Of a stretch of 64,000 nucleotides of DNA, positions 25,936 through 55,536 are shown piece by piece (positions within the stretch are counted from its first letter, which is position 1; the number at the start of each line of letters is the position of its first letter). Below the pieces are notes generated by a model. It was not told where the DNA came from. It did not search any database and was given only the letters and a program-made list of their open reading frames with translations. The DNA is taken from positions 51,949 to 115,948 of the forward strand of contig JAFSEP010000018.1 of NCBI GenBank assembly GCA_017435665.1, read 5' to 3'. Both the position numbers and the translations under genes were made by a program. This DNA is from Clostridia bacterium (lineage in GTDB: Bacteria > Bacillota > Clostridia > Oscillospirales > Acutalibacteraceae).

Positions 25936-26805
25936 TCATCCTCTGCTGATTTTTGCCTGAGCAAGAAGACTGCTCAGACGTGTTACTGTCAAATTATTGT
26001 TTGCGTTTCTTTTTACGGAAAACCCAAGTTCGTTTGTTTCCTTTATAAAGCCCAGAAGCTGTTCTGTGGTAAATCGGGTAACAAGGCGGTCCGTTGTCTT
26101 ACCGTCACCACTTACCGTATGCGTTCCGCCGTTTTTCTTAACTGCGGCTGAAGCAAAAATTTCAGCCATATCCTTCAGCGTATCCGAAAGAAGCTGCTTG
26201 TCCTTTTCAAATACCCCTGTTGCCTTCATAAATTCAAGCTCGTTATCCTCGCAAAGAAGCATACACAAGGTATGCGCCAGGTCGGAGGATTTCTTTCGCT
26301 TTTTGTCCGAAGCCGTATCATTTTCCGATTCCCCCAGAGTGATAACCGTGCCTCTTGAAATAATTGTTTCAAGCAAGGTTGCCTTGGAATCGCAGGTCAT
26401 AATGATTGCAATATGGTCGGGGGGCTCCTCAAAAATCTTGAGCAGGGCATTCTGTGACTGAACGGTCATATCCTGAGCCTCGCAGAATATATATATCTTT
26501 CTTTCAGCCTCATTGGTGGAGATAAAGGCGGTGCTTTTCATCTGCCTTATAACGTCAACACCCATAGTTGCCTTGCCCGATTCCTTTTCACAGAAAATTA
26601 TGTCGGGGTGAGCATCCTGCAATGCTTTACGGCAATGCCTGCACTCTCCGCAGGGGATTGGCTCTCCCTCGCACATCATAGCACGGGCAAGGAACTTTGC
26701 ACACTCAAGTCTGTTTGCAGCAGTCGTCCCCTCAACGATAATTGCATGGGGTATGCGTCTGAAAGAGAAGAAGCCCGAAAGAGTTTCTCTTGCGGTATCA
26801 TTCAT
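25936..26805 (-). CDS. holB: DNA polymerase III subunit delta-prime
   Basis: 289 residues from ATG 26805, which has GGAG about 9 nt upstream. In-frame GTG and ATG codons further up (to 26844) are possible. It has a clamp-loader AAA fold with a four-Cys zinc module (CEGEPIPCGECRHC), DVIRQ, QNALLKIFEEPP and SRGTVI (SRC-like). The P-loop is degenerate (VEGTTAANRL), as expected for delta-prime, which does not hydrolyse ATP. It loads the sliding clamp. It is in an operon with ricT. Confidence 0.9.
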   Translation of the reverse strand: MNDTARETLSGFFSFRRIPHAIIVEGTTAANRLECAKFLARAMMCEGEPIPCGECRHCRKALQDAHPDIIFCEKESGKATMGVDVIRQMKSTAFISTNEAERKIYIFCEAQDMTVQSQNALLKIFEEPPDHIAIIMTCDSKATLLETIISRGTVITLGESENDTASDKKRKKSSDLAHTLCMLLCEDNELEFMKATGVFEKDKQLLSDTLKDMAEIFASAAVKKNGGTHTVSGDGKTTDRLVTRFTTEQLLGFIKETNELGFSVKRNANNNLTVTRLSSLLAQAKISRG

Positions 26806-26864
26806 AATAATATCTCCGGTCACACATATCCCTCCCTTATGCAAAAGTCATTGAATCAATGACT

Positions 26865-27000
26865 TTGCAATGCTATATCCGCAATAGCAGATGTGATATT
26901 CGCCTGTCGGCGAGTGATATTTTGCCCAGAGGGCAAAGTGATATATTTGCCATTGGGCAAATGTTGTGGGTGGGCGATGCCCACACCCAATTAAAAAATC
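26865..27000. repeat. GTGATAT-spaced hairpin array
   Basis: Successive small hairpins are separated by GTGATAT: TCGCCTGTCGGCGA, TTTGCCCAGAGGGCAAA, ATTTGCCATTGGGCAAAT, then a GTGGGTGGGCGATGCCCACACCC stem-loop. A second, larger array is at 29.76 kb. Confidence 0.75.
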
Positions 27001-27131: not shown

Positions 27132-27166
27132 AAATCTCCGTTTGTCTGTTGACAAAGCGGAGATTT
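27132..27166 (-). terminator. Second, distal terminator of the small-ORF transcript
   Basis: AAATCTCCG-TTTGTC pairs with GACAAAG-CGGAGATTT. On the minus strand it is followed by a T6 run. It overlaps the -35 of the opposing antisense promoter. Confidence 0.7.
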
Positions 27167-27177
27167 GTGTTTATAAT
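27149..27177 (+). promoter_or_regulatory. Consensus promoter of a short antisense RNA
   Basis: TTGACA (27149-27154), exactly 17 nt, TATAAT (27172-27177): a perfect sigma-A consensus, with no ORF following it. Confidence 0.75.
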
Positions 27178-27183
27178 GTAATT

Positions 27184-27275
27184 GAGAGGTAACCGTGCAA
27201 AGCGGTTAGCCGGATAGTTTTATTTTTAATTTTAAAAAAGCAACCGTCACTTGGCCGAGTGGCGGTTGTTGTCTT
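27184..27275 (+). ncRNA. Putative antisense RNA of a type I toxin-antitoxin-like locus
   Basis: An RNA of about 90 nt is expected from the consensus promoter at 27149-27177 to the shared bidirectional hairpin (27241-27268, CAACCGTCACT / AGTGGCGGTTG). It runs against the 3' end of the 27-codon ORF at 27247-27330 and covers its last codons. Its 5' end (ATTGAGAGGTAACCG) repeats the 5' end of the opposing mRNA. Confidence 0.5.
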
Positions 27276-27330
27276 TTATCCTTATCGTTACAGTATATCT
27301 GAATATATGTAAAGTAATGATAATAGGCAT
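27247..27330 (-). CDS. Small peptide (27 aa), possible type I toxin
   Basis: ATG 27328-27330 is preceded 8 nt upstream by a very strong AAAGGAGG, and the frame closes at TGA 27247. The peptide begins MPIIITLHIFRYTVTIRI and ends in a basic tail NNRHSAK, so it has a hydrophobic, beta-prone head and a cationic end. The mRNA has its own near-consensus promoter (27394-27422) and ends in the hairpin at 27241-27268, with a second terminator at 27132-27166. An opposing RNA overlaps its 3' end. Small hydrophobic peptide plus antisense RNA is the plan of type I toxin-antitoxin loci, but the peptide family is not firmly recognised. It could instead be a small regulatory peptide. Confidence 0.55.
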   Translation of the reverse strand: MPIIITLHIFRYTVTIRIKDNNRHSAK

Positions 27331-27393
27331 ATGCAGCACCTCCTTTCGGAAGAGCTTGCCAACCGCCTTCACGCCTCTCAATTACATTGTCGA

Positions 27394-27422
27394 TATTATA
27401 CAGCGTTTGTTGGAATTTGTAA
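27394..27422 (-). promoter_or_regulatory. Promoter of the small peptide mRNA
   Basis: On the minus strand TTTACA, 17 nt, TATAAT (-10 at about 27394-27399), about 60 nt upstream of the small ORF. The first transcribed bases contain TGTAATTGAGAGG, which is also present in the opposing RNA's start region. Confidence 0.65.
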
Positions 27423-27518: not shown

Positions 27519-27539
27519 ATTAAATACATCAATCATATT

Positions 27540-27765
27540 CAAACCGATGAGCAAGAGTAGTAACCGGATATGAAGCTTACAGAGAGTCACGGGCGGTGGA
27601 AAGTGACAACGGAGTATTCGTGCGAATGGACTTGTGAGGGCAACCCGAAAATTGCAGTAGGCGTTGACGGTACTCTGCCGTTACACAGAGAGCGTATGAT
27701 GGTACGTATTGATTAAGGTGGCAACGGTCTTCTGTTCCTTATGGGACAGAAGCTTTTATTTTTTT
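27540..27765 (+). ncRNA. T-box leader, tryptophan specifier (UGG)
   Basis: The leader has the stem I start GATGAGCAAGAGTAGTAA, an AGAGAGTC/GGGCGGTGGAAAGTGA segment, the specifier loop GAA-TGG-AC with codon UGG at 27627-27629, the T-box bulge AAGGTGGCAACGG (27714-27726), and a terminator stem (CTTCTGTTCC / GGGACAGAAG, about 27729-27752) followed by T residues. Uncharged tRNA-Trp should favour read-through into trpB. Confidence 0.92.
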
Positions 27766-32773: not shown

Positions 32774-33015
32774 TAAAAAAACGCCCCGAGAAAAAATCTC
32801 AGGGCGAAAATACACTTTCCGTGGTACCACCTGAATTCAGAGCTTTGCTCTGCACTCAAAATCTTTAACGCAGACATACGTCGGGTTCTAATCAGCCGAA
32901 GCCTTTCTTCCCGAAGCTGACAAGCTACCTTCACCTTTGCTCTTGCAGAAACTCTCACCAACCGTTTCCTCTCTGAAGCAGGGAACAAAGCCTACTCTCT
33001 TGTTCGTAACGCTAT
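32774..33015 (-). ncRNA. T-box leader, valine specifier (GUA)
   Basis: On the minus strand: stem I with AAGAGAGTAGG and GGTTGGTGAGAG, a specifier loop GTGAAG-GTA-GC with codon GUA at 32926-32928, the T-box sequence CAGGTGGTACCACGG (about 32819-32833), and a terminator CGCCCTGAGATTTTTTCTCGGGGCG followed by T7 (32774-32806). Uncharged tRNA-Val should allow valS expression. Confidence 0.93.
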
Positions 33016-33031
33016 ATATTTATCCTTGGTA

Positions 33032-49508: not shown

Positions 49509-50984
49509 ATGAACAAATCAGAATACATCACAACAATTGACAAGGTTATTGAAAAAGGCAGATACAAGGCCGACTGGAAATCACTTTCAAACCACAAAAC
49601 ACCCGATTGGCTTACGGAAGGCAAACTGGGCATCTTTATCCATTGGGGCATTTACAGCGTTCCTGCATACGGAAGCGAATGGTACTCAAGAAGCATGTAC
49701 GATAAGGGTGTGCGGGAATTCGAGCATCACAGGAAAACCTACGGTGAGCACAAGGATTTCGGCTATAAGGATTTCATCCCTATGTTCAAGGCTGAGAAAT
49801 TCAACGCTGACCAATGGACAGAGCTTTTCAGGAAATCGGGAGCAAAATACGTTATGCCTGTTGCCGAGCATCACGACGGCTTTGCAATGTATGAAACCGA
49901 ATTCAACCGCTGGAATGCAAAGGAAATGGGACCCTGTACAGACGTTGTCGGTGAATTAAAAAAGTCCTGCGAAAAGAAGGGCCTTGTTTTCTGTGCATCA
50001 ACCCACAGAGCAGAGCATTACTTCTTTATGAATATGGGCAGAACCTTTGACAGCGATGTAAATGATGAAGCCTATGCCGATTTCTACGGACCTGCAGTAT
50101 ACTGTCCCGAGCTTGACTCAAGGGTGTTGGGAACAACCACAGAGGACCCATATACCGTCGGTGCAACTGAGGAATGGCTTACCGACTGGCTTGTACGTAC
50201 CTGCGAAATCATAGATAAATACCAACCGCAGATATTATATTTTGATTGGTGGATTCATAACCATTCCTTCAAGCCCTATCTGAAAAAGCTTGCAGCCTAT
50301 TACTATAACCGTGCAGAAGAATGGGGCAAGGAGGTCACAATCAATTACAAGCACGAAGCCTTCCCACCAACAGTTGCCACCTTTGATGTGGAACGAGGCG
50401 CATTGACCGATATTTCTCCCGTTCCGTGGCAGACAGATACGGCCATAGGTAAGGGCTCGTGGGGATACAGAGCTGACAATGAATACAAGACCTCCCGTCA
50501 GATTATCTGCGACCTTGTTGACATTGTTTCAAAGAACGGCTGTCTCCTTTTAAATATAGGACCAAAGCCCGACGGCACGATCACCGACGAGGAAACTCAG
50601 GTACTTCTCGACCTGGGCAGATGGCTTGATACTAACGGTGAGGGCATCTACGGAACAACCTTCTGGAAAACCTTCGGTGAGGGTGAAGTAAACGCCGAGG
50701 CAGGCTTTTTCAAGGACGGTGACGAAAAGGCTTTCACCGAAAAAGACTTCCGCTTCACATATAAAAACGGATATCTCTACGCCTTCCAGATGAGACCTGA
50801 CGGAAATGACGTTAAAATCAAAACCCTTGCAAAAAGAATTACCCGTGATTTCTTTATTGAAGGTGTTGAAATTCTCGGTATGGGCAATGCCGGATTTGAG
50901 CGTAATAACAATGAGCTTCTTATACACCTTCCTGATAAAATCAGCTCAGACTTACCTCTTTGCTTTAAAATTGAAATAGGATAA
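49509..50984 (+). CDS. Alpha-L-fucosidase, GH29
   Basis: 491 residues from ATG 49509 (AAAGGAG upstream). It has the GH29 start GKLGIFIHWGIYSVPAYGSEW, KYVMPVAEHHDGFAMYET, nucleophile D246 in LYFDWW, and NGCLLLNIGPKPDG. There is no signal peptide, so it acts on imported fucosylated oligosaccharides, probably host or milk glycans. A C-terminal beta domain (about 385-491) is present. No transporter is adjacent. Confidence 0.93.
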   Translation: MNKSEYITTIDKVIEKGRYKADWKSLSNHKTPDWLTEGKLGIFIHWGIYSVPAYGSEWYSRSMYDKGVREFEHHRKTYGEHKDFGYKDFIPMFKAEKFNADQWTELFRKSGAKYVMPVAEHHDGFAMYETEFNRWNAKEMGPCTDVVGELKKSCEKKGLVFCASTHRAEHYFFMNMGRTFDSDVNDEAYADFYGPAVYCPELDSRVLGTTTEDPYTVGATEEWLTDWLVRTCEIIDKYQPQILYFDWWIHNHSFKPYLKKLAAYYYNRAEEWGKEVTINYKHEAFPPTVATFDVERGALTDISPVPWQTDTAIGKGSWGYRADNEYKTSRQIICDLVDIVSKNGCLLLNIGPKPDGTITDEETQVLLDLGRWLDTNGEGIYGTTFWKTFGEGEVNAEAGFFKDGDEKAFTEKDFRFTYKNGYLYAFQMRPDGNDVKIKTLAKRITRDFFIEGVEILGMGNAGFERNNNELLIHLPDKISSDLPLCFKIEIG

Positions 50985-50989
50985 AAAAG

Positions 50990-51020
50990 GCTGTCAACAA
51001 TCGCCGATTGTTGACAGCTT
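50990..51020. terminator. Bidirectional terminator between fucosidase and the tungsten operon
   Basis: GCTGTCAACAATC pairs with GATTGTTGACAGC with a CGCC-type loop. A-rich and T-rich tails lie on the two sides. Confidence 0.85.
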
Positions 51021-51034
51021 TTGATTTTGTGTTA

Positions 51035-51361
51035 TTAACCGCCTGCTGCAGGGCTTAACAGCCAGATTTCATCTCCGTCTGCAATTTTCTTGCCCTTTCT
51101 CATACAGCGCTCACCGTTTACGTAAACAATGGCATCACCGAATTTGAGATTTTTGTGAGGATTGAGTGCCTCGTTTCTCTTTCTCGGTTTGATTTCAGGG
51201 TTATTCTTTGCTTCCTCCTGTTTTTTCAGGTCTTCATAGTAACCCTTTTCCATAATCTTTGAAATTTCTTCAAAGACACCCATTACGGTCTTTGCTTCAA
51301 CCTCAAGATATCCGAAACCGATAGTTGTACGAAGTACACCGAAAATCTTAACCTTTGTCAT
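51035..51361 (-). CDS. MoaD/ThiS-like sulfur-carrier protein with insertion
   Basis: 108 residues from ATG 51361, which has AAAGGGGG upstream and overlaps the end of the AOR gene. It has an ubiquitin-like fold with a C-terminal Gly-Gly (LLSPAAGG), the site of thiocarboxylate formation. An extra charged stretch of about 30 residues (near residues 37-70, KGYYEDLKKQEEAKNNPEI) makes it longer than standard MoaD (about 80). It is cotranscribed with aor, thiF-like and mogA. I infer that it carries sulfur for the pterin cofactor of the AOR. Confidence 0.85.
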   Translation of the reverse strand: MTKVKIFGVLRTTIGFGYLEVEAKTVMGVFEEISKIMEKGYYEDLKKQEEAKNNPEIKPRKRNEALNPHKNLKFGDAIVYVNGERCMRKGKKIADGDEIWLLSPAAGG

Positions 51362-54509: not shown

Positions 54510-54604
54510 TCTTTTTCTATATTGTTTCACTAAAATTAAACAATTTGTACATAGTTGAAGTTAGCGGATATCCGCATTAATTCATATTCCGACTCATTTT
54601 TTCT

Positions 54605-54700
54605 AAACCCTCAGGGCAGGAAAATCTGAGCGTGACCGAAATAACACTGCTTTCAAAGCACCGGTCAAGGGTAAAATGAGAAATCCTTTTGCCTTCCGTG
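54605..54700 (+). ncRNA. Structured leader upstream of tupA, possible Moco/Tuco riboswitch
   Basis: An outer stem GGCAGGA / TCC-TTT-TGCC can enclose TGACCG (54633-54638) paired with CGGTCA (54662-54667) and an inner hairpin TGCTTTCAAAGCA (54648-54660). Between them lies an A-rich segment (GGGTAAAATGAGAAATCC). The position ahead of a tungstate/pterin operon fits a molybdenum/tungsten-cofactor riboswitch. I cannot confirm the consensus by eye. Confidence 0.45.
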
Positions 54701-54720
54701 ATTGAAAAGGAGAATGAATT

Positions 54721-55536
54721 ATGAAGAAACTTCTCTCTATCCTCCTCGTTGCTGTTATGCTTTTAAGCCTTGCAGCTTGCGGTGCAGGAACCAAAACACT
54801 TCGCATATCCACAACAACATCTGTAAATGACTCAGGTCTTTTAGGCTACCTTCTTCCCTATTTCAAGGAAGCAACAGGCTATGAGGTAGATGTTCAGTCA
54901 GCAGGCACAGGTGCAGCCATTCAGAAGGCCATGGACGGTAATGCCGACCTTATCCTTGTTCACTCAAAGGCTTCTGAAGAAAAGTTTGTTGCAGACGGCT
55001 ACGGTGTGGAAAGAATTCCCTTTATGTACAACTACTTTGTAATTGTAGGTCCCAAGGATGATCCTGCAGGCATAAAGGACAGCAAGGATGCAACAGCAGC
55101 TTTTGCAAAGATTGCAGCATCTGAAGCAAAGTTCGTATCCCGTGGTGACGACAGCGGCACTCACAAGGCAGAGCTTAAAATCTGGGCAGAAACAGCACCC
55201 AACGCAGAAACAGATACCTGGTACATAAACGCAGGCAAGGGCATGGGTGAATGCCTTACAATGGCAAGCGAACAGGGCGCATACTGTCTGACTGATAAGG
55301 CAACCTTCCTCTCAAATGCAAAGAATCTCGACCTTGAAATTCTCCTTGCTGAGGGTGAGGATATGAAAAATACCTATTCTCTCATTGCATGCAACCCCGA
55401 AAAGCTTCCCGACATCGACACAGAGGGCGCAAAGGCATTCATAGACTGGATGACAGGCGACGAGGCTTCAGCTCTTATCGCAAAATACGGTGAAGCAGAA
55501 TATGGCTCAGCACTCTTCTATCTCATCGAAGAATAA
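54721..55536 (+). CDS. tupA: Tungstate-binding lipoprotein TupA
   Basis: 271 residues. A lipobox (SLAAC, Cys20) makes it a membrane-bound lipoprotein. It then has TTTS (31-34) with NDSGL, the oxyanion-binding TupA motif, and SRGDDSGTHKAELKIW. TupA proteins bind tungstate with very high affinity and give it to TupBC, and the TTTS pattern separates them from ModA and WtpA. It is the first gene of the rightward operon, preceded by the structured leader. Confidence 0.93.
   Translation: MKKLLSILLVAVMLLSLAACGAGTKTLRISTTTSVNDSGLLGYLLPYFKEATGYEVDVQSAGTGAAIQKAMDGNADLILVHSKASEEKFVADGYGVERIPFMYNYFVIVGPKDDPAGIKDSKDATAAFAKIAASEAKFVSRGDDSGTHKAELKIWAETAPNAETDTWYINAGKGMGECLTMASEQGAYCLTDKATFLSNAKNLDLEILLAEGEDMKNTYSLIACNPEKLPDIDTEGAKAFIDWMTGDEASALIAKYGEAEYGSALFYLIEE

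Follow-up and report, generated by a model that had tools for sequence, protein, structure and literature searches.

The subject of this analysis is a short locus at positions 27132-27422 of a 64,000-nucleotide (nt) stretch of the Clostridia bacterium contig JAFSEP010000018.1; throughout, "the window" means that whole stretch. We conclude that the locus is probably a type I toxin-antitoxin module, in which a 27-codon peptide would be the toxin and an opposing RNA of fewer than 100 nt the antitoxin; both the transcription of the two RNAs and the toxicity of the peptide are what we infer. An earlier note on this DNA had proposed a compact locus of this kind, and the proposal is supported by selection on the coding sequence, by retention of the antisense promoter, by the sharing of one RNA scaffold among several peptides, and by copies on phage contigs. 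In plan it appears closest to par_pAD1/Fst, with an unrelated peptide, and the family to which it belongs seems to have no significant match in the databases and open-access literature searched and is unannotated in the one annotated record checked.

The features on which the argument rests are given below, RNA starts being assumed to lie 7 nt past each -10 box.

27330..27247, minus strand: peptide open reading frame (ORF), 27 codons plus TGA, MPIIITLHIFRYTVTIRIKDNNRHSAK; its stop codon falls within the terminator 3' arm
27343-27339, minus strand: Shine-Dalgarno (SD) sequence GGAGG, 8 nt 5' of the ATG
27423-27395, minus strand: putative peptide mRNA promoter TTTACA-17-TATAAT, 11/12 by sequence match
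27149-27177, plus strand: putative antisense promoter TTGACA-17-TATAAT, 12/12 by sequence match
27239-27270, both strands: predicted bidirectional intrinsic terminator common to both RNAs, 14-pair stem
27388-27237, minus strand: predicted peptide mRNA, 152 nt, starting 7 nt past the -10 and ended by the terminator
27184-27278, plus strand: predicted antisense RNA (antitoxin), 95 nt, comprising a 5' hairpin and the terminator

These elements agree with the earlier description of an ORF with a strong SD and a near-consensus promoter, facing a perfect promoter for an RNA of about 90 nt, with one bidirectional terminator in common and an overlap of the 3' ends, which is 42 nt in the predicted transcripts.

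The ORF is conserved. Homologues occur in relatives and in the wider Clostridia, and their codons indicate that the peptide is coded and under purifying selection: with the tail excluded, the ratio of nonsynonymous to synonymous substitution rates (dN/dS) is ~0.205 over 85 distinct genes (290 pairs at 75-99% identity, which are not independent of each other). The window's own genome carries a second copy, C54, with 80% DNA identity and a peptide 93% identical. Matches at E<=0.1 were found in 11 of 59 genomes, namely its own and 10 of 58 relatives, seven of these being clear (E <1e-3) and three marginal. Profile searches matched 6 of 398 genomes in the phylum (own included; one, G069, is doubtful) and 3 of 291 in the class, which are its own, one with an ORF-less copy and one seemingly unrelated. 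They also matched 4 of 35 genomes in the order of one distant genome, which itself holds 14 matches, and 1 of 25 in another order. An ORF-less copy, L160, has its antisense side in place; weak profile matches at L012, L014, L129 and L159 were taken for chance or remnants.

Searching contigs of GTDB genomes with a pattern of terminator plus tail gave 114 sites in 105 stretches, and among these the 80 whose titles were listed are mostly Lachnospiraceae, Oscillospiraceae and unnamed Clostridia. The distribution of the family is patchy and multi-copy. Both promoters, the leaders, the ORF and the terminator are conserved across copies. No annotated feature covers the copy in Vescimonas fastidiosa MM35 (NZ_AP023416.1), though the gene table there is incomplete. 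Around trpB the module is present in 2 of 10 genomes, own included (neighbourhood comparison only). In one relative, L017 (G033:C60), a module 5' of trpB has ATA for ATG and retains its antisense promoter; it is probably a worn-out toxin. At L020 393-2207, five sites of the same class lie within 1.8 kb at spacings of about 450 bp; the first of them has no intact ORF.

The antisense side was compared across copies. We used 100 distinct copies, having dropped 14 of the 114 sites as duplicates or as too close to a contig end, and as control 469 windows of 200 bp taken 1-2 kb away in homologous loci. An antisense promoter scoring at least 10/12 is found in 96 of the 100 copies vs ~3% of the 469 controls, and a peptide-side promoter of that quality in 64 of 100. 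Where the ORF and SD are intact, 80 of 81 copies keep the antisense promoter at that threshold, and the one exception, L030, has both antisense hexamers at a short spacing. Copies without an intact ORF keep it in 16 of 19 cases, one of these 16 being only an assembly gap. The peptide side is thus lost with the antisense side kept, as an antitoxin predicts: retention of the antitoxin upon loss of the toxin is common (16/19) and the reverse is rare (1/81). A putative antisense gene with its own promoter lies opposite the putative toxin gene, as far as sequence can tell.

The same RNA scaffold also carries other peptides. A covariance model of the antisense RNA, R1, was built from 44 rows with the window locus among them, and it finds the window's antisense RNA, its own row, at 85 bits. 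Within the genus 22 of 34 genomes (own included) match at E<=0.01, many of these matches being plain terminators or lying on the mRNA strand of a copy. On inspection, matches show the same convergent layout with other hydrophobic peptides, such as MQYVTYENLLTFSIVIISIIELTVLVLEHKKK, MEYYILLVLILIAATGYILSIKK and MVTFELLVAFTVMLIQLITLCYLIFKK. The kinds seen in the genus are MQYVTYENLL..VLEHKKK, MEY..ATGYI..KK and MVTFELL..CYLIFKK; a MFWLSV.. peptide sits on the scaffold in a distant lineage, and MDDMIIILFLILLIIIYIKK and further peptides do so elsewhere in the class. By our own reading, 19 of 45 inspected places have a hydrophobic toxin-like ORF with an SD, and the other 26 are without such an ORF, are plain terminators, or are unclear. 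Among 196 genomes of the class, 8 besides its own match R1 at E<=1e-4, half of them (4/8) with a short hydrophobic ORF and SD on the scaffold. Two of the 19 places are scaffold mates in the window's own genome, C13 (L249, MVTFTELIMFTSLIVAIVVACYTIFSDNKRRK) and C64 (L250, MSALILILSTGYILAIKNDNKKK).

The antisense leader CTGCGAYAAGCGGT stands directly 3' of the TTGAC promoter at 12 of 20 loci with other peptides, or 10 of 18 regions once two overlapping pairs are each counted once; the motif is present in 32 of 100 copies of the window's class, and its placement after TTGAC had no match in 0.36 Mb of shuffled DNA. Of ten peptides scanned, two have scores with Hol_Tox (Pfam PF16935) that fall short of the cut-off, E 0.0025 and 0.038; the scaffold mate MQYVTYENLL..HKKK is among the peptides with such a weak score. 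Rfam gave no match at gathering score in five scaffold loci. Two places resemble small toxin islands: L248 (G009:C13:59550-63150) holds three cassettes with different peptides within ~3 kb, and L247 (G009:C11:12650-13800) holds two, also with different peptides, within ~0.5 kb.

Copies also occur on phage contigs. A first, stricter terminator pattern found none in IMG/VR, and a looser one matched 18 stretches there. Fourteen of the 18 have an intact peptide of the window's class with an antisense promoter of at least 10/12 (some contigs share an identical peptide), two are unrelated and two are without the ORF. L299 carries portal, capsid and tail genes to either side or nearby, L305 a terminase and a portal gene, and L308 an antirepressor. 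A further record, L311 (MT835905.1, titled Bacteriophage sp.), is probably a bacterial contig with housekeeping-like genes, which by eye we take to be purC, serC, serA and ATP-binding cassette transporters, and it was not counted as phage evidence.

The character of the peptide deserves some care. In 53 peptides that start with MP, positions 3, 5, 7, 9, 12, 14, 16 and 18 are hydrophobic in 98-100%, and positions 6, 8, 13, 15 and 17 are non-hydrophobic in 96-100%, as is position 4 in 75%; position 11 is commonly G, K, N or R. This alternation of polar and hydrophobic residues around a turn suggests an amphipathic beta-hairpin, not a helix, and sets the peptide apart from toxins described as alpha-helical. 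The "hydrophobic head" of the earlier note is an alternating amphipathic pattern, and hydropathy gives no transmembrane helix, the highest 17-residue Kyte-Doolittle value being 1.21, compared with 2.45-2.71 in three scaffold mates and 1.74 in a fourth. Its NNRHSAK tail is present and is the terminator sequence read as protein. In the distant lineage the tail is RHSAQ or RHYGQ, or the peptide ends at NRH. Because it varies there, the tail seems to be carried along by the terminator, and the last seven residues look like a by-product of reading through it.

Four further features bear on how the two RNAs might behave.

27360..27367, minus strand: leader motif GGCGGTTG in the peptide mRNA, complementing CAACCGCC of the terminator 5' arm
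27339..27352, minus strand: putative SD-hiding hairpin CTTCC-GAAA-GGAGG, from folding prediction
27188..27211, plus strand: predicted antisense RNA 5' hairpin with the 3' arm GCGGUU, which recurs in the peptide mRNA leader
27134..27164, minus strand: candidate further hairpin with a T-run, serving leftward transcripts and formed around the antisense -35 box, from the window sequence

On the plus strand the shared terminator is a 14-pair stem followed by T; read on the minus strand, it contains a C.A mismatch and is followed by CTTTTTT. The TGA stop in its 3' arm produces this C.A mismatch in the mRNA where the antisense strand has a G.U pair, and the toxin mRNA should therefore have the weaker hairpin. 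The first antisense alignments show an invariant terminator since the search pattern fixed it, which says nothing on conservation. For covariation we used 18 terminator types, which we picked for diversity from the 81 of a search that still fixed part of the centre. Compensatory changes, affecting both sides of the stem, were found at 6 of 12 pairs (3.6 in shuffles; as high in 3/500) and occupied 23 cells vs 7.1 in shuffles (0/500 as high); the number of pair types in this set was not above shuffles. Of 96 copies, 30 have a terminator-like hairpin with a T-run near the antisense -35, overlapping it in 24, vs 13 of 288 shuffles; such a hairpin might end read-through toxin mRNA within the antitoxin promoter.

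Both RNAs of the window are predicted to fold more stably than expected (peptide mRNA: minimum free energy -46.1 kcal/mol, z -3.47; antisense RNA: z -3.49). In the predicted mRNA fold the leader GGCGGUUG pairs with CAACCGCC of the terminator at a probability of 0.99-1.0; across copies this predicted pairing exceeds 0.5 in 27 of 78, with a mean of 0.37 vs 0.04 for shuffled leaders. The SD is predicted to be paired in 78/78 copies (mean 0.91). GCGGTT occurs on 86 of 100 antisense sides and GGCGGTT on 67 of 100 mRNA sides. When leader similarity within a locus was set against the cross-comparison with the nearest relative, it was higher in 48 of 85, tied in 10 and lower in 27, in copies that are not independent.

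Cognate leader-terminator duplexes beat 1000/1000 permutations, by ~0.5 kcal/mol only and with kinship not controlled. In some clades the base that follows GCGGUU fits its partner in the terminator; this does not hold for the main class, where the leaders of loci with CAACCGCC have G 42, A 31, T 11 and C 1 at that place. We keep base-by-base leader-terminator covariation as weak support. The two predicted RNAs overlap perfectly over 42 nt, and their pairing is predicted to gain 43 kcal/mol; this makes antisense neutralisation of the toxin mRNA no more than possible.

The proposed mechanism can now be stated. A leftward mRNA would encode a short cationic amphipathic peptide acting as the toxin. 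Its SD would be locked in the GAAA hairpin and its leader could pair with the terminator 5' arm, so that little translation is predicted from the full-length transcript. A rightward RNA of ~95 nt, made from the consensus promoter, would overlap the mRNA 3' end terminator against terminator. Pairing of the terminators, with another contact between the related leader hairpins, might then prevent translation and leave the duplex open to RNase III. Should the antisense supply end, any mRNA still present would be translated, and its peptide would damage the membrane or another target of the cell that makes it.

It is useful to compare this plan with known systems. The earlier note likened the layout to txpA/ratA-type systems of Bacillus subtilis prophages, which share with it the 3' overlap of toxin mRNA and antisense RNA and the association with phages. 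Their terminator is presumably not shared as compactly as here. Neither the window peptide nor 13 relatives matched the txpA/ratA or Hol_Tox sequence families. RatA is also longer, with a 199-nt peak in PMC3574147. The convergent promoters, common terminator and antisense RNA below 100 nt are nearer to par_pAD1/Fst of Enterococcus, as PMC7472228 describes it, than to txpA/ratA. That system likewise has convergent promoters with one bidirectional terminator in common (a likeness read from the sequence only on our side), a short antisense RNA, a second pairing region near the 5' ends, an SD sequestered by a 5' stem-loop, and a peptide of ~30 amino acids (PMC7472228). The differences are that the window peptide has no Fst-type match in Pfam or NCBIfam and no PXXXG motif by eye, that its ORF ends inside the terminator, and that Rfam gives no match to known antitoxin RNAs. 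Moreover, par_pAD1 has direct repeats, transcribed in opposite directions, near both 5' ends, and the window locus has related leaders in the same sense in both RNAs and an inverted repeat.

The Clostridioides difficile type I modules (CD2517.1-RCd8 and others) resemble the present family in having homologues widespread in phages; their toxins differ, by description, in having 50-53 amino acids, a hydrophobic N-terminus, a lysine-rich tail and long complementarity (PMC6563280). According to PMC8309996, the ribosome binding site of zorO is sequestered by structure in the 5' untranslated region (UTR), structural rearrangement of the aapA1 toxin mRNA bears on its pairing with IsoA1, and AapA1 has an alpha-helical segment by nuclear magnetic resonance. 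The zorO/orzO and aapA1/IsoA1 pairs differ from the window locus in their peptides and in antisense geometry.

Several observations weigh against the toxin-antitoxin interpretation and should be borne in mind. There is no significant match to Pfam, NCBIfam, PHROGs or PADLOC, so the peptide falls in no toxin family there (as an "unfamiliar" peptide, the earlier note's word, it stands); weak scores are given by single family members, to one PHROG (E 0.19) and to two Pfam families (0.07). The Hol_Tox-like peptide with E 0.0025 has a close relative for which Hol_Tox gave no match. Hydropathy and residue pattern predict no alpha-helical transmembrane segment for the window peptide. The copies are related, and the promoter counts accordingly overstate the number of events; the one-sided loss could partly reflect the greater length of the peptide side. 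Leader-terminator pairing is favoured in just 27 of 78 copies, the adjacent base often being mismatched, and shuffled 5' UTRs also leave the SD paired (mean 0.62, >0.5 in 64/78). Covariation in the antisense leader hairpin is not beyond shuffles. Finally, the copies in the window's genome sit among core-like genes (by eye; two checked by Pfam), and in that setting nothing points to a role in addiction; the locus could just as well have a chromosomal role or be left over from phage passage.

The alternative that survives best, which we nevertheless consider unlikely, is that the peptide is a non-toxic small regulatory or structural one, for example a membrane or phage-related regulator, tuned by its cis-antisense RNA. 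The same anatomy would serve it, and the lack of a classical membrane helix and the core-like positions just described would suit it. A toxin is the better fit to the one-sided loss of the peptide with the antisense promoter retained, to the patchy multi-copy spread, and to the exchange of unrelated hydrophobic peptides on the same scaffold.

We give very little credence to a second alternative, that the antisense RNA alone matters, as a free-standing small RNA or as a decoy against modules elsewhere, with the peptide a remnant in this genome. The 16 of 19 ORF-less copies that keep the antisense promoter and the ATA start in L017 would be in keeping with it, whereas the window locus has kept its mRNA promoter, SD, start codon and whole ORF, and the second copy's peptide is 93% identical.

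The last alternative concerns an inverted repeat framing the locus.

27175..27189, plus strand: repeat arm AATGTAATTGAGAGG, overlapping the antisense -10, from a repeat search
27374..27388, minus strand: the other arm, at the predicted peptide mRNA start, from a repeat search

The arms are 15 nt long with 100% identity, and the 13-mer of the repeat has no further exact match in the window. This is the only repeat found between the promoters, the sole direct repeat (10 nt, 90%) lying outside them. The antisense -10 (27172-27177) contains the start of the plus-side arm, and the minus-side arm starts 6 nt past the peptide-mRNA -10; given these different offsets, only the peptide mRNA begins with a complete repeat. 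The antisense RNA would begin near the last GAGAGG, inside its arm. The earlier statement that both RNAs start with a copy is correct for the exact inverted repeat and for the peptide mRNA and needs amending for the antisense RNA. That the repeats are the ends of a small mobile element resembling a miniature inverted-repeat transposable element, with promoters and ORF incidental, has the repeat itself, the several copies in some genomes and the 2-in-10 presence upstream of trpB in its favour, and is the least credible reading of all, as one arm lies inside a -10 box, homology reaches both -35 boxes while the exact repeat is not conserved between copies, and the codons are under purifying selection.

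To return to the type I module: a broader proposal, on which we regard the evidence as evenly balanced, is that it belongs to a modular, phage-linked clan of type I cassettes in gut Firmicutes. One RNA chassis (two convergent promoters, twin GCGGUU leaders and one bidirectional terminator) would carry interchangeable toxins, among them the first amphipathic beta-hairpin type I toxins, whose C-terminus would be set by the terminator. If this is true, gut commensals and their phages would have a further family of type I modules, recognisable via the RNA scaffold where peptide homology fails, and the toxin could be swapped while the antitoxin chassis is kept. The peptide is short enough for direct synthesis.

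In the open-access literature searched (titles and abstracts, with few subscription papers and no bioRxiv preprints), neither the peptide nor the scaffold is named. At the window locus Rfam gave nothing at gathering score, the best permissive match having E 0.12. A lead to Bac_small_YrzI, a weak Pfam match in 1 of 14 members (E 0.074) with no tie found in the literature, was dropped.

The gap that holds the locus is flanked by two genes.

25936-26844, minus strand: delta-prime-like gene (DNA polymerase III; Pfam DNA_pol3_delta2)
from 27869, plus strand: trpB-like gene

The same gap contains a cluster of short palindromes at 26890-26965 (TTCGCC..GGCGAG, TTTGCCC..GGGCAAA), perhaps a dispersed repeat, and a T-box leader at 27538-27743 (plus strand) ahead of the trpB-like gene, which scores 82.8 bits, below the Rfam gathering score of 93. 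Elsewhere in the window there is a weak antisense-model match at 50981-51061 (minus strand; 19.9 bits, E 0.029), a further T-box at 32797-33018 (minus strand) and a molybdenum cofactor (Moco) riboswitch at 54575-54728 (plus strand).
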